Source: a virus. Taken from it: a stretch of 29,253 bases of DNA. The stretch covers positions 1 through 29,253 of the IMG/VR virus record IMGVR_UViG_3300027489_000017, one strand, 5' to 3'. Positions 2,616 to 29,197 of this stretch are shown here, piece after piece (the first letter of the stretch is position 1; each line of letters starts with the position of its first letter). The position numbers were made by a program, and so were the translations under genes. The notes beneath the pieces were generated by a model, which saw only the letters and a list, made by a program, of their open reading frames with translations, was not told the origin of the DNA and ran no database searches.

Positions 2616-3253
2616 ACGTCATTACGCCGGTCGATGGGACAAACAACATTCGTTATGCTGATTTTGTGCGTGTAACAACGCCGTCGGCAGAGTATCGGTT
2701 TGCCACCACGCCGATGGCCATTAGTGTGCCTGCGGTTGATCCGTTGCCGTTTGATGCTGTGGGCCAACTGGTAAAGGTCGGCGAGTCTCAGCGCGACATT
2801 AAGAGTACGAGCAACGAGACAACGGTGTCGTTCGTGGGTATCGACACGGCAATGCTTGGGTGGGTTCTCGGACAGGAAATCAAGGGGTCGCAAATTGAAA
2901 TGTGGCACGGGTTTTTCAATACCGATGGCCAGTTGATTACGACGGGCGGCACGGGTGGGCTGTATAAGTTTTTCACCGGATATATTTCGTCGTTCTCAAT
3001 TTCCGAACAGTGGATGGAGGAAGTCCGAGCGTTTGCAGGAATGATTACTGTCAGCGCGTCGTCGATTCAGATGATCCTGCAAAACCGTGTAGCGGGTAGA
3101 TATACCAATGACAACTCGTGGCAGTTTTTCAATCCTGGCGATACGAGCATGGATCGAGTTGCGTTCGTATCAACAATAAACTACCGCTTCGGTCGGCAAG
3201 GTGGTGGCGCACCAGCGGTCGTGCAACCACCAAGACTTCAATCGCTTGAATAA
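2612..3253 (+). CDS. Minor tail / tail tip protein (lambda L position)
   Basis: A 213-residue protein with a beta-rich N-terminal part and a C-terminal segment QNRVAGRYTNDNSWQFFNPG followed by SMDRVAFVSTINYRFGR. This pattern of an Asn-Arg-Ala-Gly-Arg-Tyr-Thr stretch, then a proline-containing loop and an aromatic/Gly/Arg end, is one I associate with tip proteins placed between tape measure and J in marine and freshwater siphophages. It lacks the Cys cluster of lambda gpL, so an iron-sulfur tip is not supported. The ATG overlaps the previous stop (ATGA) and the stop is one base from the next ATG. Function as a tail tip component is inferred from position. Confidence 0.68.
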   Translation: MNVITPVDGTNNIRYADFVRVTTPSAEYRFATTPMAISVPAVDPLPFDAVGQLVKVGESQRDIKSTSNETTVSFVGIDTAMLGWVLGQEIKGSQIEMWHGFFNTDGQLITTGGTGGLYKFFTGYISSFSISEQWMEEVRAFAGMITVSASSIQMILQNRVAGRYTNDNSWQFFNPGDTSMDRVAFVSTINYRFGRQGGGAPAVVQPPRLQSLE

Positions 3254-3254
3254 A

Positions 3255-3689
3255 ATGATTCGGCAAGCAACAAAATACGATAAAACACAAGTCATCGAAA
3301 TGATGAAAGCGTTTCGGGCTGAAAGTCCGATCAGTGCTTTGTACGCAGAGGACGACCCGGAATATTGGGACGCAATGCTGACAAGCATTTTTGCTGGCCG
3401 TGGTGCTGTATTCATTGAGGATGGCAAAGGGTTACTGTTGTCGATGGTTTATCCGAGCATCTGGAGTGGCAAGGTTTTTGGCCTGCACGAGTTGGCGTGG
3501 TATGTGTATCCGCAACATCGTGGGGGGACGACTGGATACCGCCTCGTCAGGGCTTATGTGGACTTCGCCAAAGGGTTGAAAGATTCAGGACGAATTGCGT
3601 ATTTCACACTCAGCAAGATGGTTTCCAGTCCTGCAATGAAATACGAAAAACTGGGGTTCAGAAAAGTCGATGAAAACTGGATTCAATAA
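3255..3689 (+). CDS. GNAT-family N-acetyltransferase
   Basis: A 144-residue protein beginning MIRQATKYDKTQVIEMM, the usual beta1-alpha1 entry of GNAT acetyltransferases. HELAWYVYPQHRGGTTGYRL (about 77-96) fits beta4 plus the acetyl-CoA pyrophosphate loop, with RGGTTG in place of Q/RxxGxG/A. AMKYEKLGFRKVDENW at the end is the typical beta6-beta7 closure. These enzymes move an acetyl group from acetyl-CoA to an amine; the substrate here is unknown. An in-frame start at 3201 exists, but ATG 3255 lies one base after the previous stop and begins exactly at the domain edge, so I prefer it. It overlaps the J-like gene by 20 bases. Its place inside the tail tip block suggests it acts on a virion protein or is a passenger gene; neither is shown. 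Confidence 0.8.
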   Translation: MIRQATKYDKTQVIEMMKAFRAESPISALYAEDDPEYWDAMLTSIFAGRGAVFIEDGKGLLLSMVYPSIWSGKVFGLHELAWYVYPQHRGGTTGYRLVRAYVDFAKGLKDSGRIAYFTLSKMVSSPAMKYEKLGFRKVDENWIQ

Positions 3690-8416: not shown

Positions 8417-11400
8417 ATGGCAAATTTAAATGTCACGGTTGTCGATGGCAACAACATCAATGTCCAAGTAACTCCGACGCCAGATCAAGTTATTAACATC
8501 GATCGCGGTGTTGCTGGCAATGGTGTTTCAAGCATTGAGGTAGTTAACGAGGGCGACTACGCTTATCTGCAAATCAATTACACGGACGGCACAATCGAAA
8601 CGGTTGGCCCAGTTGGTGTTAGCAGTGAAATCCTAATAAATATCGATGACAACATGGTCAGCATCGTTGCGGTTGCTGACGACCTGACTGTTATCAACAC
8701 GGTTTATGACAATTTGGCCGCAATCAATGATGTAGAGGCAAATATGGCCGCGATCATTGCGGCTCCGACTGCGGCATCTGAAGCGGCGGCTAGTGCGGCG
8801 GCGGCATTGACCAGTGAAACAAATGCGGCTTCATCTGCCGCTGATGCTCTGGCGTCTGAAACTGCGGCGGCAAATTCCGCCACATCTGCCGAAAACTCTG
8901 CATCGAATGCCGCTTTGTCTGCGACTGATGCCGATAACAGTGCTGACATTGCCGCGACTCAGGCAAACAATGCCGCGACGTCTGCTGGTGATGCCGCAAC
9001 GTCTGCCGCAAATGCGTTGGCGTCTGAAATGGCGGCGGCTACGTCTGAGTCAAATGCGGCTACGTCTGCGGCTAATGCTTTGGCATCTGAAAATGCGGCG
9101 GCGGCTTCAGCGGCTGATGCACTTGCATCTGAGACTGCGGCGGCGGCATCTGCGGCGGCGGCTTTGGTTTCGGAAACAAATACGCAAACCCTGTTCGACA
9201 ATTTTGATGAGCGTTACCTGGGCGCGTTTAACTCCGATCCGGCAACGGATAACCAGGGCGACCCGCTGATTGTGGGCGCGTTGTATTGGAATACAGTCAA
9301 CAATGTGATGCGTACCTATACGGGTACGGCGTGGATTACCGCATACGTTCCGTCTACAAATTTTGTTGCCAAGTCACCAACGGCAACGGATAACGCTGTT
9401 GTTCGTTTTGATGGCACGACCGGCTACACGATTCAAAATTCTGGCGTCATTGTTGATGATAGCAATAACGTTGCTGGAAATAGTTTCACTGGCGCGTATG
9501 TACAGATTGACACGGCGGCTACTGAAACACCGGCAGTTGGCAAGATGGTTTGGGATGCCGCGCAGGGAACGATTGCGTTTAATGCTTTGAATGATGGCGT
9601 TGTGCGTATCGGTCAATCGTTGCTGGCTTATGTCACTAATGCTGATTCGGTCACTATCCAAAAGGGGCAAGCCGTTTATTTGTTTGGGGCGCAGGGTGAT
9701 CGTGCGACTGTAAAGTTGGCATCGAACAATGGCGATTCGACGTCTGCAAAAACATTGGGGCTGGCAAACCAATCAATTGCGCCTAATGCTACTGGCTTCA
9801 TCATGTGCCAGGGCGTTATCGGCGGCTTAAATTTGTCTGGATTCACTGCTGGTGATTCTTTGTATTTGGGATCAACTCCCGGATCAATTACAAACATCAA
9901 ACAATACGCCCCCAACCATTTGGTCTATATTGGCGTGGTTGAGCGTGCAAATGCTGGCAATGGGCAAATTTATTTGCGCGTGCAAAACGGATACGAGTTG
10001 GACGAATTGCATAATGTGTCGGCTCAAAGTCCGACCAATGGACAAACGCTTGTCTACAACTCTGTTAGCGCACTTTGGGAAAAGTCAAACGCGCCTGTTT
10101 TGAGTTCGGCAACTGGATTGCCGTTGGAAACTGGCGTCACCGGCGTGTTGGCTGTTGTACATGGTGGCACTGGGGCAAACAATGCTCCCGATGCTCGAAC
10201 AAATCTGGGTTTGGGTAGCGCGGCTGTTTTAAATGCTGGCGTTGCTGATGGCGTTGCCACGTTGGACGGTAGCGGCACTGTGCCGCTGTCGCAAATCCCC
10301 GCATCCTTGCAAGGCGCATTGAGTTATCAAGGCACATGGAACGCATCAACTAATACGCCGACTATTACATCAAGTGTTGGCTCAAAGGGTTATTACTACG
10401 TGGTGAGTGTTTCAGGTAACACCACTATCAACGGTGTTTCCAACTGGGTCACTGGCGACTGGATCGTTTTCAACGGCTCTGTTTGGGAAAAGATAGATAA
10501 CACCGATGCCGTCACTTCAGTAAACGGGCATACAGGCACTGTGGTGCTTGGATATACCGACGTTGGTGCTCCGTCTACAAGCGGAACAAACGCGACTGGA
10601 ACGTGGGCGATTGATATTTCAGGCAATGCGGCAACGGCTGATTTGGCTGACGTAGCAACGGATTTGAATATCAATGGATTGACTCCCGAAACGGCAATTC
10701 AATCTAGCGACTATTTGGTCGTGTATGACGTTTCGGCTGGTGCTAATCGCAAGGCAACGATCAGCGATGCGGCGATTGTTGGGCCGACCGGACCTACGGG
10801 AGCAACTGGGCCTGTGGGCGCGACTGGCCCCGTGGGTCCAACTGGCGCAACCGGCCCTGCGGCAACGATTGCTGTTGGTACGACTACGACTGGTGCGCCT
10901 GGAACAACGGCAAGCGTTACAAATTCTGGAACGTCTGGTGCGGCTGTTTTTGACTTCACAATACCGCGAGGTGATGTTGGGGTTACTGGGCCAACTGGCC
11001 CGACTGGGCCGACTGGAGCAACAGGCAGTCCTGGACCGACTGGGCCAACCGGACCTGTGGGGCCAACTGGAACAGCGGCAACAGTATCTGTCGGAACAAC
11101 CTCAACGCTAACCGCTGGTTCACCTGCGACTGTCACAAATAGCGGTACTTCATCTGCGGCTGTTTTTAATTTTGGAATTCCCAATGGGCCAACTGGTGCG
11201 ACTGGCCCGACTGGAGCAACTGGGCCAACGGGTAGTCCTGGGCCGACCGGCCCTACTGGGTTGACTGGTAGTCCTGGCCCTACTGGGCCAACTGGGCCAA
11301 CCGGACCTAGTGGCCCACCTGGGCCAACTGGGCCAACTGGACCGACTGGACTTGGATATGCCGGGCTGACATCAACCACATCAATTTCTATTGGGCTTTC

Positions 11401-12076
11401 ATCAAAGACTTTTACGGTTAATCAAGCGCAAGGCACAAACGCTTTTGTTGTTGGTCAATATGTTCGTGCCTTTGGCGCGACAACAACCAACTTTATAGCC
11501 GGTCGAATTACGGCTTACACCGGAACGTCATTGACAATAAGCCCGGATTACACTGGTGGCTCTGGTACATTTGCATCTTGGACAATTACGGATACTGGTT
11601 CGCAAGGCGCTACCGGACCCACCGGACCCACCGGAAGTGCCGGACCCACTGGCAGTCCTGGCCCAACCGGCCCCACCGGCGCAACCGGCCCCACCGGACC
11701 TGTTGGCCCACCTGGACCGACTGGGCCGTCAGGCGCAACTGTTGTTCGTGCTTGGGTAAATTTATCTACATCGTCAAATAGTCCATCGATCAAGGCTCAA
11801 TCAAATGTGAGTTCGTTGACCTATACGGGAACTTATGCCGGTAACTATAACGTCAACTTTACAAGTGCAATGCCAAGTGCAAACTATGCGATGTCAAGTC
11901 AATTAACGCAACAATACAACAGCACAGCACTTTTTGGTGTGTGTTCTGTCGCTTCAAATACTGGGATGGGAACACCAATCACAAAATCGACGACTCAGAT
12001 TCAAATTGTGATGGCTGGATATGGAGGCGCATTTGCAACAGTTGGTGACGTAAGCATGATTTTCGTTGGGGGCTAA
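8417..12076 (+). CDS. Large tail fibre with Ala-rich coiled coil and collagen-like blocks
   Basis: A 1219-residue modular fibre. Residues 1-75 form a small N-terminal domain. At 115-253 there is an Ala/Ser-rich coiled coil with repeated SAA(D/N)ALASE units spaced by 14 or 21 residues, i.e. heptads. At 257-305 there is a carbohydrate-fibre-like module ([19 protein letters not shown]). At about 580-601 a fibre repeat [19 protein letters not shown] occurs. Four Gly-Pro-Thr collagen-like blocks lie at about 788-815, 857-885, 923-980 and 1060-1108. Between blocks 1/2 and 2/3 sit two copies of a short beta module. Residues 1109-1219 are the C-terminal domain shared with the short fibre. Collagen-like and coiled-coil repeats make trimeric stalks, so this should be a long flexible trimer carrying a receptor-binding tip. 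The next gene is a likely assembly chaperone. Confidence 0.92.
8761..9175 (+). repeat. Heptad-coding repeat region in the large fibre
   Basis: DNA coding the Ala-rich coil, built of short degenerate units such as GCGTCTGAAA(CT/AT)GCGGCGGC. Four copies of the encoded ALASE(T/M/N)AAA unit are visible. Spacing in multiples of seven residues keeps the coil register, so copy number could change by slippage without breaking the fibre. Confidence 0.7.
10780..11745 (+). repeat. Collagen-like GPT repeat DNA in the large fibre
   Basis: Four blocks of nine-base units coding Gly-Pro-Thr or Gly-Ala-Thr (10780-10862, 10988-11072, 11186-11365, 11597-11745). Blocks 2 and 3 mostly use GGGCCAACT or GGCCCGACT. 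Block 4 mostly uses GGACCCACC or GGCCCCACC. Identical units such as ACTGGGCCAACTGG recur and would allow recombination between blocks. Confidence 0.85.
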
Positions 12077-12077
12077 T

Positions 12078-12485
12078 ATGAATCAGGTAATTATTTACAC
12101 AAACGAAATTGGTGGTGTTGCTGTTTGTTTTCCAACTGGCGAATTACCTATTGAAGTTGTGCAACAAAGAGACATTCCAAAAGGCGTTGAAAGTTTTATT
12201 GTCACAAAAGATTCATTGCCGCCGTGCTTTGATTACGCAATGGCATGGGAACAATCTAATGGTGTCGTGACTGTCAATATTGCAAAAGCAAGAGAGGTCG
12301 CAAAAGAAAAATTGCGATTCGACCGCAAAGAATTGTTTACGTCTTTGGACATTGCGTTTCAACGCGCAATGGAGACTGGCGCAGACACATCTGCAATCGT
12401 TGCTGAAAAACAAAGATTGCGAGACATTACCAATTTGCCCGATTCTTGTAACACGATTGAAGAATTACGCGCATTGTCGGTTTGA
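12078..12485 (+). CDS. Tail fibre assembly / tail assembly chaperone-like protein
   Basis: A 135-residue protein. The C-terminal part FDRKELFTSLDIAFQRAMET, then IVAEKQRLRDITNLPDSCNT and IEELRAL, is the ending shared by many small phage proteins annotated as tail fibre assembly or tail assembly chaperones. I infer that it helps fold or attach the fibre coded just upstream. The N-terminal 60 residues are a small beta-rich domain. I choose ATG 12078, one base after the fibre stop, with GGGGG six bases before it; an in-frame TTG at 12066 would start inside the fibre gene and has no better SD. No membrane segment. Confidence 0.72.
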   Translation: MNQVIIYTNEIGGVAVCFPTGELPIEVVQQRDIPKGVESFIVTKDSLPPCFDYAMAWEQSNGVVTVNIAKAREVAKEKLRFDRKELFTSLDIAFQRAMETGADTSAIVAEKQRLRDITNLPDSCNTIEELRALSV

Positions 12486-12501
12486 TTTTGAAAGAAAAGA
12501 T

Positions 12502-13050
12502 ATGACACAACATCTGCCAATTTGGTATCTGGGCAAACTTGATTCGGAAACCTGCGATCAAGCAAAAAATGATTTGCTGAAATTTCCATTTCACGATGCC
12601 GCAATGGGAGTTAATGGCGAAGTAAAGCAAGAATCGCAACGAAAAACAAACGTGGTGTTTGCTCCGTTTGATTTTTGGCTCGGTAAGGAAATGGAAAAAA
12701 TTGCAATTGAGGGCAACTCGGTTTGCAAATGGAACTATGACATTCCGAGTCGTGAAGCGATTCAGTTTGCTGAGTACAAACCAGGACAGCATTACGATTG
12801 GCACGTTGATTATTTCCCGCTGGCTGGCGGGGAAACGGATCGCAAAGTGTCTGCGGTTTGTTTATTGAATGATCCTAACGAGTTCGATGGCGGGATTTTT
12901 CAAATGCGTTTATATTCTGAGTTCACTGCGCCGCTTGAAAAGGGAACGATTATTGCGTTTCCGTCTATTTTGGAACATCGGGTTACGCCGGTGACGAGTG
13001 GCGTTCGTTATTCTGCAACAATGTGGTTTCACGGGCCGAGGTTTAGATGA
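12502..13050 (+). CDS. 2OG-Fe(II) oxygenase (PiuC/PKHD hydroxylase-like)
   Basis: A 182-residue double-stranded beta-helix dioxygenase. YKPGQHYDWHVDYF carries the HxD iron ligands (H101, D103), and EHRVTPVTSGVRYSATMWF carries the distal iron ligand H159 and the 2-oxoglutarate-binding R169, so the active site is complete. Such enzymes couple 2-oxoglutarate decarboxylation to hydroxylation of a protein, small molecule or base. This one resembles the prolyl-hydroxylase-like group that phages often carry near tail genes. I prefer ATG 12502 (SD GAAAGAAAAG, 16 bases after the previous stop) over in-frame starts inside the upstream gene. Substrate unknown: fibre collagen-like prolines, an iron-uptake or translation target, or DNA bases are all possible. 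The 4-base overlap with the next gene joins it to the lysis cassette. Confidence 0.85.
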   Translation: MTQHLPIWYLGKLDSETCDQAKNDLLKFPFHDAAMGVNGEVKQESQRKTNVVFAPFDFWLGKEMEKIAIEGNSVCKWNYDIPSREAIQFAEYKPGQHYDWHVDYFPLAGGETDRKVSAVCLLNDPNEFDGGIFQMRLYSEFTAPLEKGTIIAFPSILEHRVTPVTSGVRYSATMWFHGPRFR

Positions 13051-24863: not shown

Positions 24864-25658
24864 ATGACACGAATGCAGGTGGTTTACAAAAATGTCGAGA
24901 CTCTGAACCCCTACGGAAATAACAGCCGTACACATTCGGAAGATCAAATCGACCAAATCGTTGCGAGTATTAACGAATTCGGGTTCACGAATCCGATTCT
25001 GATTGACGAAGGCGACGTAATCATTGCAGGGCATGGACGCCTTGAGGCCGCAAAGCATCTGGGCCTGGAGGAAGTGCCAACAATCACTCTGGCTGGCCTG
25101 ACTGACGAGCAAAAAATCGCCTACGTCATAGCCGATAACAAACTTGCGCTCAATGCTGGCTGGGACGAAAAACTGCTGGCCGTCGAACTTAGTTCGTTGC
25201 AATCCGTTGGGTTTGATGTATCGCTAACGGGTTTCAGCAAAGAGGAATTGCGCGACCTGCTGGGGGTGGGCGATGGTAGTTCTGACGAACTGGAATACTC
25301 GAAGAAAATTGATACGCCTGCGTATACGCCGAAAGGCGATAAACCCAGTTTGTCAGAGTTAACAAGTACGGACAAGTACGCACAATTTGTCTACAAGATC
25401 GAACAATCGGCTCTGCCTGATGACGAAAAAGAATTCCTATTAACTGCCGCCCGTAGGCATATCGTATTCGATTACGCAAAAATCGCTGAGTATTACTGCC
25501 ACGCCTCAAAGGAAATGCAGGAATTGATGGAGGATTCGGCCCTGGTCATCATTGACTTTGAAAAGGCTATCGAAAACGGGTACGTCATCCTGTCGAAGCA
25601 ACTCGAAGGAATTTATTTCGACTCATACGAAGGCGACGACGATGGCGATGAAGCATGA
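24864..25658 (+). CDS. ParB-like domain protein
   Basis: A 264-residue protein. Residues 4-100 form a ParB/Srx-type domain: LNPYGNNSRTHSEDQIDQIV, FTNPILIDEGDVIIAGHGRL (GHGR is the ParB box II position) and IAYVIADNKLALNAGW. In phages this domain is often fused to DNA methyltransferases. Here the C-terminal half (about 145-250: YTPKGDKPSLSELTSTDKYA ... RRHIVFDYAKIAEYYCHASK ... IENGY) has no methylase motifs. The RRHIVFDYAKIAEYY-type tail is one I know from ParB proteins next to phage modification genes. It overlaps the glycosyltransferase gene by 17 bases. Possible roles: marking sites for base modification, or a nuclease/NTPase; box II could bind nucleotide. Confidence 0.85.
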   Translation: MTRMQVVYKNVETLNPYGNNSRTHSEDQIDQIVASINEFGFTNPILIDEGDVIIAGHGRLEAAKHLGLEEVPTITLAGLTDEQKIAYVIADNKLALNAGWDEKLLAVELSSLQSVGFDVSLTGFSKEELRDLLGVGDGSSDELEYSKKIDTPAYTPKGDKPSLSELTSTDKYAQFVYKIEQSALPDDEKEFLLTAARRHIVFDYAKIAEYYCHASKEMQELMEDSALVIIDFEKAIENGYVILSKQLEGIYFDSYEGDDDGDEA

Positions 25659-26496
25659 AAGGTTTTGCGCTTTTATCCTGACGCATGGTCGAGCGAATCG
25701 TGTCTATACGTACAAGACTCTCAAAAAGTCTGGGTACACTGGCCCGATTGTCATCGTGGTTGATAACGAAGATCGAACGATTGATGAGTACAAAAAAGTA
25801 TTCAAGGATCAGGTCTACGTCTTTGACAAAAAAGCGATGGCCGCAAAGATCGACGAGGGCGACAACTTTCAGGATCGACGAGCGATCATCTATGCGCGAA
25901 ATGCGTGTTTCGAAATCGCCGAGGCATTCGGGTACGAATACTTCATCCAACTGGATGACGACTACACCGACTTTCGTCACAAAAAAAACCACCTCGGGGA
26001 ATACTGCGACAAAAAAATCCACGACTTCGACGCCGTAATGGACGCCATGCTGGACTATTACAAGTCGATTCCTGCGTTGACGATTGCGATGGCCCAGGGC
26101 GGGGACTTTGTTGGCGGGAAAATGGGCAACTCGTGGAGAAAACCAAAGCGTAAAGCAATGAATAGTTTTATCTGCTCTGTGCATCGCCCGTTCAAGTTTT
26201 TTGGTAGGGTAAACGAGGACGTTAATACGTATACAAACTTGGGTTCCCGTGGCGGGTTATTCCTGACGATGATGAGTCTGGCACTGCAACAAAAGCAGAC
26301 TCAGACGAATAGCGGCGGCATGACAGAGATGTACCTGGACAGCGGAACGTATGTGAAATCGTTCTATTCTGTGATGTACCAACCCTCGTCTGTGCGGGTA
26401 GGGATTATGCACAGCAAGAACGCCCGTATTCATCATCAGATTACTTGGCGTAATACTGTGCCCCGTATTTTGGCCGAAGAATACAAAAAGCAGTAA
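25642..26496 (+). CDS. TET-associated-type glycosyltransferase (TAGT-like)
   Basis: A 284-residue GT-A-fold glycosyltransferase. FILTHGRANRVYTYKTLKKS, GYTGPIVIVVDNEDRTIDEY, the DEGDN...RRAIIYARNACFEIA stretch and FIQLDDDYTDF (metal-binding DDD at 105-107) are the sequence of the TAGT group, which Iyer, Aravind and co-workers linked by genome context to glycosylation of hydroxylated bases in phage DNA; the eukaryotic GREB1 C-terminal domain is a relative. E192/D193 (VNEDVNTYTNLGSRGG) may be the catalytic acidic pair. The start at 25642 has GAAGG eight bases upstream and lies at the domain's beginning. It overlaps the ParB gene by 17 bases and touches the HNH gene (shared base in TAATG). No TET/JBP or methylase gene is in the window. 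Activity not shown. Confidence 0.82.
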   Translation: MAMKHERFCAFILTHGRANRVYTYKTLKKSGYTGPIVIVVDNEDRTIDEYKKVFKDQVYVFDKKAMAAKIDEGDNFQDRRAIIYARNACFEIAEAFGYEYFIQLDDDYTDFRHKKNHLGEYCDKKIHDFDAVMDAMLDYYKSIPALTIAMAQGGDFVGGKMGNSWRKPKRKAMNSFICSVHRPFKFFGRVNEDVNTYTNLGSRGGLFLTMMSLALQQKQTQTNSGGMTEMYLDSGTYVKSFYSVMYQPSSVRVGIMHSKNARIHHQITWRNTVPRILAEEYKKQ

Positions 26497-26969
26497 TGCC
26501 GAGCATCCCATCTACCCCGTACTGTGCCGAACTAGGGTGTAAGAATCCCAGGTCAAGGCTCAATGGGTTCTGCCTGGAGCATGGGGGTAAAAACAAACAA
26601 AAGTACGACCCCAAGTACAACGCCGCTAGAAAAGAGCAAAGCCGCTTTTATAAATCTAGGCAATGGCTGACTCTACGCCAGATTCAACTAAGTAAGTCAC
26701 CACTATGTGTGGGATGTAGCGCAGAGGGTGTTATTACTGCGGCGAATACTGTCGACCACCTATTCCCTTGGACACAGATAGGCGAGACTGCGTTCTTTAT
26801 AAATAAATTCCAGTCGCTGTGTAATATGCACCATGCAACCAAGACACAACTCGAACAGCATGGGATATACAGACGCTTTGGTAGACCCGAGGTCGATTAT
26901 TCTGTGGAGGACTATGCAAGAGTCGTGGGACTCGACGAGCCGACGGCGGACGGACGGGCCGAAACTTAA
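26496..26969 (+). CDS. HNH endonuclease next to terminase
   Basis: A 157-residue HNH protein. N-terminal Cys/His pattern PYCAELGCKNPRSRLNGFCL then EHGG; after a basic linker, CVGCSAEG, VDHLFPW, NKFQSLCNMHHATKT is the complete HNH core with a CxxC...CxxHH zinc site. In cos-type phages of the HK97 kind the HNH nuclease is coded beside TerS and is needed with terminase for cos cutting and packaging. The start shares a base with the TAGT stop (TAATG). The last residues run 90 bases from the preferred TerS start. Confidence 0.9.
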   Translation: MPSIPSTPYCAELGCKNPRSRLNGFCLEHGGKNKQKYDPKYNAARKEQSRFYKSRQWLTLRQIQLSKSPLCVGCSAEGVITAANTVDHLFPWTQIGETAFFINKFQSLCNMHHATKTQLEQHGIYRRFGRPEVDYSVEDYARVVGLDEPTADGRAET

Positions 26970-27059: not shown

Positions 27060-27530
27060 ATGAACAAAAAACCGCCTGAACTGCATCTCGTCGACGGCAC
27101 GACCCCGCGAAAAGGGATGCCTGCGTCGTTACCCGATACGCTCAAGAAAAGAATCCCCAAGGCCGAATGGGTGGATAACCCCGAAGCGTGGGACAAGTCA
27201 AAATTCATTGAGGAAACCTCGGAATTTTTGTACGACGTCTACGGCATAGGGAATAACCAGGACAAGCACACGCTGGCTATGCTGGCCGACCATATCGATA
27301 CGTACGTTCAGTGCACCAGGGCGATTAAAAAGGGCGGGATTGTGACCTCGTTCAATAATGGGCAGACGATTGGCCCGAATCCGTATCTGACTGTGCGAAA
27401 TAAAACGATGACTCTCATCATTCAACTGATGAACGAACTCGGGCTGACGCCTCGGAGTCGCTTGTCGGCTGGCAAATCTGAGGACGAAAGTCCGGTGGCT
27501 CAATTCCTGCGAGGCCCGTTAGCGCAATGA
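27060..27530 (+). CDS. terS: Terminase small subunit (P27 family)
   Basis: A 156-residue P27-type small terminase. KKPPELHLVDGTTPRKGMPA at the start is the family's 'P-ELKLL-GT' opening; a helical core (FIEETSEFLYDVYGIGNNQD, LADHIDTYVQCTRAIKKGG) and ELGLTPRSRLSAGKS follow, the last being the typical C-terminal line. It recognises the phage DNA end and feeds TerL. ATG 27060 starts exactly at the family N-terminus; ATG 27030 and a TTG at 26973 are in frame but lack support. No clear SD is seen at any of them. The stop overlaps the terL ATG by 4 bases. Confidence 0.9.
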   Translation: MNKKPPELHLVDGTTPRKGMPASLPDTLKKRIPKAEWVDNPEAWDKSKFIEETSEFLYDVYGIGNNQDKHTLAMLADHIDTYVQCTRAIKKGGIVTSFNNGQTIGPNPYLTVRNKTMTLIIQLMNELGLTPRSRLSAGKSEDESPVAQFLRGPLAQ

Positions 27531-29197
27531 ATTGGCAAGATGGGGTGGCGTATGCCCACGCTGTGGCGAAGGGTGAAATTAACGTCTGCAACGATGTGCG
27601 GCTGGCGTGCCAAAGGTTTATTAACCAACTCGAAAATGCCGAATGGGAATGGGTGTTCGACCCGAGGTTTCCTGCTCACGTTATACAGTTTGCCGCTACT
27701 TTGAAGCATACGAAGGGGCCGCAGGCTGGCGAACCGATCGTCCTGGAACCATTTCAACTGTTGCTGATTTGCGCCGTGTACGGGTTCAGGTCCAAAAAGG
27801 ATTTGAACAAACGAATGGTGACGGACGTCATTCTGTTTATCCCTCGAAAGGCTGGTAAGTCGACGCTTACTGCTGTGCTGACTCTTTACGAATTGCTGTG
27901 TGGTGAGGCTGGGCCAGAAGTGTTTACGCTGGCGACTAACCGCGAGCAGGCGACGATTGTGTTCGATGCCGCCAAAGGATTCGTTGAGGCCATGCCTAAA
28001 GAATTGGCCGACCTGTTTAATCCGAGCAAATACAGTATTAGTAAACGGGGCGATTCGCAGTCTATGTTCAAGGCTTTGAGTCGGGACACAAAAAAATCGG
28101 GTGACGGAAAAAACCCGTCGTGCGTGGTGGTGGACGAAGCCGCGCAAATTGTCGATCGCAACTCAATCGAGGTTTTGCACTCCGGTATGGTGGCCCGTCA
28201 GAATCCGTTAAGGGTCTATATCACGACGGCCTCGTTTACGAAGGACACTAAGTTTTACGAAGATTTGTCGATGTTGCAGTCGATCCTGCGAGGCGAGGCG
28301 TCTGACAATCCGAGGTGGTTTGGCCTGTTGTATGGGCTTGACCTGGGCGATGACTGGCGCGAGCCGATAAATTGGGCCAAGGCCAATCCGATGCACGGCA
28401 TATCGGTATTCGAAGATGCGATCCATGCCCGTGCTGAGGAAGCGAAGCACAAGCCAGCCGCGCTTAACGAATTCCTGTGTAAGACGCTAAACGTCTGGGT
28501 GTCTGCGAATGCCGCTTGGCTGGATCGTGCCCATTGGGATGACCCGGTGTGCCATATCCAGGTCCGCAGGCCTGAACCGGAAGCGTCGTTTATTGGATTT
28601 GACTTAGCGGCGACCCGTGATTTAAATTCGGTCTGCACGTTAAATCGATTCGGGGAGGATGATTACGAAGCGGAATGGCAGTTTTTTTTACCCGAGGAAA
28701 GTCTGCAATTCATACCAAAGCATTACCTCGACATTTTCAGGGTAGCAATTCAGTCCGGTATCTTGAAATTGACCGAGGGCAACGTGATGGACGACCGCGA
28801 AATAAGCGATTATATTATTAACCAGCAATGTAATAGGTACAACATCAAGGAAGTCGGATACGATGCCTATAACGCCGCCTCGCTGGTGGCACGGTTGCAC
28901 GATGGTGGGGTTCCGGTGAAAAAAGTGGGCCAGGGTATGGCGGTGCTGAATAACCCGAGCAAATACATCGAAAAATTGATTCTTAACAAAAAAATCAAGC
29001 ACGATGGCAACCCGTTCCTGGGCTGGCAACTTGGTAACTGCGAATGCTACACGGACGTTAATGGAAATATCAAAGTTCGCAAGAATGAGGCCGATAAAGC
29101 CGCGAAAGTTGACGGAATTATCTCGATGATTATTGCGGCTCACTGTGCTTTGGACAATCCTTTTGTGAGCAACAGTTTCGGTTTTAGGTCGTTTTGA
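27527..29197 (+). CDS. terL: Terminase large subunit
   Basis: A 556-residue packaging motor and nuclease of the HK97 type. The ATPase half has Walker A at 107-113 (RKAGKST) and Walker B at 200-204 (VVVDE), with an adenine motif around FQLLLICAVYGF and a coupling motif near YITTAS. The nuclease half starts at about 355 (FIGFDLAATRDLNS, D359), continues with VGYDAYNAASL and ends with ADKAAKVDGIISMIIAAH (third acidic residue). All catalytic positions look intact. It pumps DNA into the empty head through the portal and cuts the concatemer. ATG 27527 overlaps the terS stop. Confidence 0.96.
   Translation: MNWQDGVAYAHAVAKGEINVCNDVRLACQRFINQLENAEWEWVFDPRFPAHVIQFAATLKHTKGPQAGEPIVLEPFQLLLICAVYGFRSKKDLNKRMVTDVILFIPRKAGKSTLTAVLTLYELLCGEAGPEVFTLATNREQATIVFDAAKGFVEAMPKELADLFNPSKYSISKRGDSQSMFKALSRDTKKSGDGKNPSCVVVDEAAQIVDRNSIEVLHSGMVARQNPLRVYITTASFTKDTKFYEDLSMLQSILRGEASDNPRWFGLLYGLDLGDDWREPINWAKANPMHGISVFEDAIHARAEEAKHKPAALNEFLCKTLNVWVSANAAWLDRAHWDDPVCHIQVRRPEPEASFIGFDLAATRDLNSVCTLNRFGEDDYEAEWQFFLPEESLQFIPKHYLDIFRVAIQSGILKLTEGNVMDDREISDYIINQQCNRYNIKEVGYDAYNAASLVARLHDGGVPVKKVGQGMAVLNNPSKYIEKLILNKKIKHDGNPFLGWQLGNCECYTDVNGNIKVRKNEADKAAKVDGIISMIIAAHCALDNPFVSNSFGFRSF

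Follow-up and report, generated by a model that had tools for sequence, protein, structure and literature searches.

TET-associated glycosyltransferases (TAGTs) were reportedly proposed by Iyer et al. in 2013, who may have noted ParB neighbours. The TAGT of phage T6 glucosylates glucosyl-HMC DNA and adopts a GT-A fold according to a published model, and the same 2026 paper counted "solitary" TAGTs, their function unknown, in 288 phage genomes (PMC13216743). This beta-glucosyl-HMC-alpha-glucosyltransferase matches Pfam family PF20691 over its full length (37 bits) and is encoded next to dCMP hydroxymethylase and together with an alpha-GT, while in gp9-gp12 of the Synechococcus phage S-CBWM1 a PF20691 enzyme and sugar-nucleotide genes form a TET-TAGT cluster with TET/JBP adjoining the TAGT. 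The TAGT described here differs from both in its surroundings: its gene follows one for a protein combining a ParB_N module with a domain that we term TPD (TAGT-partner domain), while T6 has neither TPD nor ParB_N and S-CBWM1 has no TPD near its TAGT.

The locus lies in the IMG/VR record IMGVR_UViG_3300027489_000017, a linear viral sequence 29,253 bases long, the whole of which is called the window in the following. Its left end is situated in the tail region, starting with a tape measure gene (29-1933), its right end carries the gene for the large terminase subunit (TerL), head/portal genes are missing, and no overlap between the two ends was found. A GNAT-like acetyltransferase gene (3201-3689) within the tail module overlaps both of its flanking genes. 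The unit itself consists of two genes on the plus strand. The first (24864..25658) encodes the ParB_N-TPD protein (264 aa, pI 4.35, AlphaFold2 pLDDT 86), whose residues 1-135 (24864..25268) constitute ParB_N with a GHGR motif, a score against PF02195 above the cut-off (29 vs. 26.3 bits) and the Noc/ParB CTP switch fold (E 6e-7), and whose residues 143-264 (25290..25655) constitute the acidic, helical TPD (H170-256 in the AlphaFold2 model). The protein thus shares ParB_N and its fold with ParB partition proteins and differs from them in its C-terminus, which is TPD; a parS-binding HTH domain was not found using Pfam, nor was there any PDB match beyond ParB_N. The second gene (25642..26496) encodes the TAGT (284 aa, pI 9.25) and starts with the ATG at 25642 or, alternatively, at 25648. 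With the former start it overlaps the first gene by 17 bases (25642..25658), just as the earlier note had described. Downstream and outside the unit, an HNH gene (26496-26969) precedes the Pfam-assigned genes for the small terminase subunit (TerS, 27060-27530) and TerL (27527-29197), both on the plus strand.

Judged by sequence and model, the second protein is a genuine TAGT family member with GT-A fold and DxD motif. It scored 124.4 bits against PF20691 (cut-off 27.5) and 260 bits against phrog_842, and it contains all of the motifs HGR, VDNED, RRAIIYARNA and LDDDY, which together with a DDD motif had led the earlier note to the same assignment. Structure prediction, which that note had suggested as a check, yielded a confident AlphaFold2 model (pLDDT 92.4, pTM 0.90) from an alignment of 81 relatives. 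In Foldseek comparisons the model matched the PDB entries of the GT-A transferases LARGE1, AvpGT, GalNAc-T2 and SunS (E ~1e-4), among which AvpGT is a nucleoside 3'-O-glucosyltransferase (PMC11959488), and reached TM values of up to 0.86 with phage proteins of PF20691; a PDB sequence search using the TAGT profile gave no match. Thirty-five columns are invariant across the 81 aligned relatives, among them D106, D107, D193, K239, H264 and H265. The first two belong to the DDD metal/nucleotide-sugar motif D105-D107 (25954..25962), which follows strand 100-104 of the model, H264-H265 (26431..26436, in strand 262-267) are the predicted metal/phosphate ligand, and the ED motif E192-D193 (26215..26220) is predicted to provide the catalytic base of what would be an inverting enzyme. 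Its activity would probably be that of a glycosyltransferase using a nucleotide-sugar of the host. Median dN/dS values are low (0.07 for TAGT, 0.10 for TPD, 0.12 for ParB_N), indicating purifying selection, and because of these values and the 35 invariant columns the gene pair is not a chance reading. Transfer of function from T6 is remote, because BLASTP and hhalign revealed neither pairwise nor profile similarity between the TAGTs of T6 and the window, and T6 TAGT was therefore rejected as a close functional model.

TPD became apparent from comparison with a homologue in Vibrio phage phiKT1024, where ParB_N is gone and only about 110 C-terminal residues are kept. The domain has no Pfam or PDB match of its own, in agreement with the earlier note that considered it nameless, but it does lie inside a known PHROG, because phrog_620 spans residues 1-245 of the ParB protein. 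A search seeded with TPD retrieved TAGT in all 80 close loci and, among 78 more distant ones, in 77 (157/158 together), the sole exception being a contig that ends one base past TPD. Conversely, searches seeded with TAGT found TPD in all but one of the 80 closest viral loci at the first threshold and in all 37 loci from GTDB genomes. After pooling and dereplication the set comprised 186 loci, all with TPD; ParB_N was detected in 136 of them, and some of the 50 missed by the HMM used contain a diverged ParB_N. Pairwise distances of TAGT correlate with those of TPD (r=0.74, partial 0.72, Spearman 0.41; n=70) and hardly with those of ParB_N (r=0.25, partial 0.04, Spearman 0.15; n=70), despite ParB_N and TPD sharing one polypeptide chain. 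Median isoelectric points among the relatives are basic for TAGT (9.0) and acidic for TPD (4.7) and ParB_N (4.8). When 15 window genes were tested in 88 relatives, only those for ParB-TPD and TAGT occurred in all of them, while none of the others was present in more than seven; DUF5856, HNH, DUF932 and the recombination genes were consequently rejected as parts of the unit. Within the TAGT branch to which the window belongs, TPD is thus an obligate partner of TAGT, as linkage, co-evolution and opposite charge demonstrate, and the two probably touch each other directly. The suspicion in the earlier note that the C-terminal domain of the ParB protein travels with the transferase and is its true partner has been substantiated.

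Obligate pairing, co-evolution, opposite charge and a small, overlapping upstream partner would also be displayed by a toxin-antitoxin-like or anti-defence pair, with TAGT as a harmful glycosyltransferase and the acidic, upstream-encoded TPD as its inhibitor. We regard such a role as highly improbable, given that the pair is located among late genes beside the terminase, that donor-making and radical-SAM genes are inserted in the unit and that tandem TAGTs occur.

With regard to ParB_N, the affiliations lie with DNA modification. This module is widespread among annotated DNA methyltransferases of phages, and its copy in the window shares 61-62% identity with ParB_N of annotated DNA methylases from other phages. 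These fusions (phrog_498) carry a methyltransferase domain in place of TPD and the separate TAGT. Alongside further DNA modifiers, ParB-like domains have been reported from CmoX neighbourhoods and methyltransferase fusions (PMC12783734), and ParB-like DpdB belongs to Dpd systems (PMC12839542). The unit is widespread, and it precedes the terminase genes in phages infecting widely different hosts, namely Lactobacillus phages c5 (directly after cos) and jlb1, JNU_P11, Porphyromonas phage005b, Nocardia phage NTR1 and Rac-type Escherichia coli phages, and lies further upstream of TerL in Haloarcula virus HHTV-2. For 67 relatives, families of the large terminase subunit were the commonest Pfam assignments of the two genes downstream (17, 13 and 10 members). 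Mycobacteriophage Nigel encodes an overlapping pair at the same place: gp1, whose ParB_N closely resembles the NTR1 module and whose C-terminus is other than TPD, and gp2 (locus L295, 776-1744) immediately precede TerS and TerL. Annotation of gp2 as queuine tRNA-ribosyltransferase/tRNA-guanine transglycosylase was rejected, since Tet_JBP is its only, albeit weak, Pfam match (26.5 bits, below cut-off); an HxD...H...R pattern is present and we consider the protein to be a Tet_JBP-like oxygenase. We take the position ahead of the terminase to be a modular slot that accommodates DNA-modifying enzymes, and the methyltransferase fusions as well as the place before the TET-like oxygenase of Nigel suggest that ParB_N is an exchangeable targeting module.

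Neither TET/JBP nor thymidylate-synthase-type or methylase genes were detected among the window proteins scanned, matching the earlier note, although absence from the window alone proves little because the head/portal part of the phage is missing. More informative are the relatives. The TET linkage that defines TET/JBP-TAGT hypermodification systems was tested and found in none of 47 carrier records, several of which are complete genomes, while the same search detected TET/JBP in S-CBWM1 and Nigel. A recognisable hydroxymethylase was likewise absent from all 47, complete genomes included, setting the carriers apart from the T-even glucosyl-HMC system with its dCMP hydroxymethylase. The only carrier with a member of the thymidylate-synthase family is Vibrio phage W04 (191 kb), whose score of 234 bits is closer to that of a true thymidylate synthase than to that of the T6 hydroxymethylase (56 bits in the same search). 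N6/N4 methylases occur in six and C5 methylases in two carrier records. PF13640, the family of the 2OG oxygenase encoded in the window, was found in none of 48 relatives. As TET/JBP, recognisable hydroxymethylases and this oxygenase family are all absent, the missing hydroxyl-maker is a property of the class and not of an incomplete contig, contrary to what the earlier note had considered. The survey it had proposed thus showed a pairing that is nearly universal in this branch and occurs without TET.

Some relatives contain additional genes in or next to the unit; the window unit itself is devoid of cytidylyltransferase, radical-SAM, second TAGT, epimerase and second glycosyltransferase genes. 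A cytidylyltransferase domain (PF01467) is present in 14 of the 186 dereplicated loci, nearly always between ParB-TPD and TAGT. It is usually fused to histidine phosphatase and has glycerol-3-phosphate cytidylyltransferase as best PDB match, which hints at a CDP-linked sugar donor. Fusions of histidine phosphatase with a TagD-like cytidylyltransferase were seen at this position in loci L106 (8341-9279), L133, L140, L144, L160 and L119. An apparent fusion of ParB-TPD, phosphatase and cytidylyltransferase in L104 possibly arose by deletion or frameshift and was excluded as fusion evidence. Two or more TAGTs occur in about 13 loci; a sugar epimerase (L128, 1561-2400) and a group-1 glycosyltransferase (L130, 9174-10433) are encoded immediately 3' of TAGT in single loci. 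Directly 3' of TAGT, ten of the dereplicated loci carry a radical-SAM gene (L012, 10843-11808; L019, L207, L226, L261, L271, L272, L277, L278 and L281; four or five have tandem TAGTs). The first of these is the closest relative of the window, with 80% identical TAGTs, and its radical-SAM protein best matches BtrN and, with lower score, cytosylglucuronate decarboxylase in the PDB, which is only suggestive of sugar tailoring. The same neighbour could serve a two-step hypermodification, in which an unrecognised host or phage enzyme, such as this radical-SAM protein, makes a base hydroxyl to which TAGT then adds the sugar, as in the TET-TAGT and T-even systems. To our knowledge, every DNA glycosyltransferase whose function is understood acts on a base hydroxyl that is already in place, and S-CBWM1 exemplifies TET adjoining TAGT. 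Such a sequence of events nevertheless appears unlikely in view of the enzyme survey described above and of the window and most relatives having no radical-SAM neighbour, and we know of no host hydroxymethylation across such different hosts.

In the region 8417-13050, the window encodes a tail fibre with collagen repeats (1219 aa) followed by a P4H-type 2OG-Fe(II) oxygenase (12280/12502-13050). The latter had been put forward earlier as a source of the base hydroxyl and was rejected as partner of TAGT, as its family is lacking in the 48 relatives named above and the gene itself in all 88 of the larger set. Adjoining the fibre gene, it is more plausibly a protein hydroxylase, and the phage possibly hydroxylates its own collagen-like fibre. 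A fibre thus hydroxylated would be one conceivable substrate if TAGT glycosylated protein (terminase, capsid, fibre or a host protein) with the ParB protein as specificity or chaperone subunit, and the protein glycosyltransferases GalNAc-T2, SunS and LARGE1 are among the fold neighbours in the PDB. On the other hand, with the fibre gene in five of 88 relatives and the oxygenase gene in none, neither travels with TAGT, no single protein besides TPD is common to all carriers, and the other associations of ParB_N are with enzymes that modify DNA, making a protein target decidedly unlikely.

Context and family membership thus point to DNA modification as the best reading, as the earlier note had proposed. 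Based on linkage and co-evolution of TPD and TAGT, the fusions of ParB_N with methyltransferases and the Nigel ParB_N ahead of a TET-like oxygenase by the terminase, we propose, with a probability of about 0.5, that the two genes form a compact unit for DNA glycosylation in the late phase, in which TPD would serve as adaptor and ParB_N as an exchangeable module for targeting; its sugar, acceptor, timing and benefit are likewise what we infer. The acidic TPD would bind the basic TAGT, an inverting GT-A enzyme drawing on host nucleotide-sugar, and ParB_N would bring it to the phage DNA, which, as suggested by the slot beside the terminase, would be modified after replication and just before packaging. 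The modification would most likely block restriction or another DNA-directed defence. A 5-hydroxymethylpyrimidine is excluded as acceptor in the carriers insofar as it would be made by phage TET or thymidylate-synthase-type enzymes that can be recognised; the acceptor may be a base or sugar position that carries no modification, or a group provided by the host or an unrecognised enzyme. Tentatively, and with considerable doubt, TPD-TAGT may place the sugar directly on unmodified phage DNA (a base amine, a ring position or the deoxyribose 3'-OH), independent of hydroxymethylation, steered by the ParB_N/TPD adaptor and with CDP-linked donors and radical-SAM tailoring as options. The failure to find a hydroxyl-forming enzyme, the remoteness of T6 TAGT, the acidity of ParB_N-TPD without a DNA-binding HTH and the lack of ParB_N in many loci speak against DNA glycosylation.

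Of 5426 complete E. coli genomes, 887 (about 16%) contain the unit in a prophage, counting matches that cover no less than 80% of the query DNA; a plasmid search gave no match. In these genomes ParB-TPD and TAGT are complete, in contrast to the decayed Rac prophage of E. coli K-12, where ynaK, a truncated ParB_N, is the sole remnant. RefSeq names the E. coli TAGT "GREB1-related protein" and, in a strain with broken ynaK, a separate TPD reading frame "transcriptional regulator" (WP_085442742.1); the truncated ParB_N and this separate frame were noted in loci L247 (2543-2806) and L246 (3331-3834). Decay is also evident in Lactobacillus phages: in LL-Ku (L011, 90-938) a deletion has joined the beginning of the ParB gene to a central part of the TAGT gene, and in phiLdb and Ld17 TAGT is also split or truncated. 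Loss in some lineages and strong purifying selection elsewhere would be easier to reconcile with a conditional role, e.g., in counter-defence, than with an indispensable step of packaging.

A large class of "solitary" TAGTs is therefore not solitary: these enzymes come with a partner domain of their own and with an exchangeable module that DNA methyltransferases also possess, and their genes typically lie beside those for packaging. With the known hydroxyl-makers absent from this class, the target of glycosylation becomes a sharp question, and as carriers include E. coli prophages, a lactic phage and a haloarchaeal virus, it is one that can be tested in ordinary laboratories.
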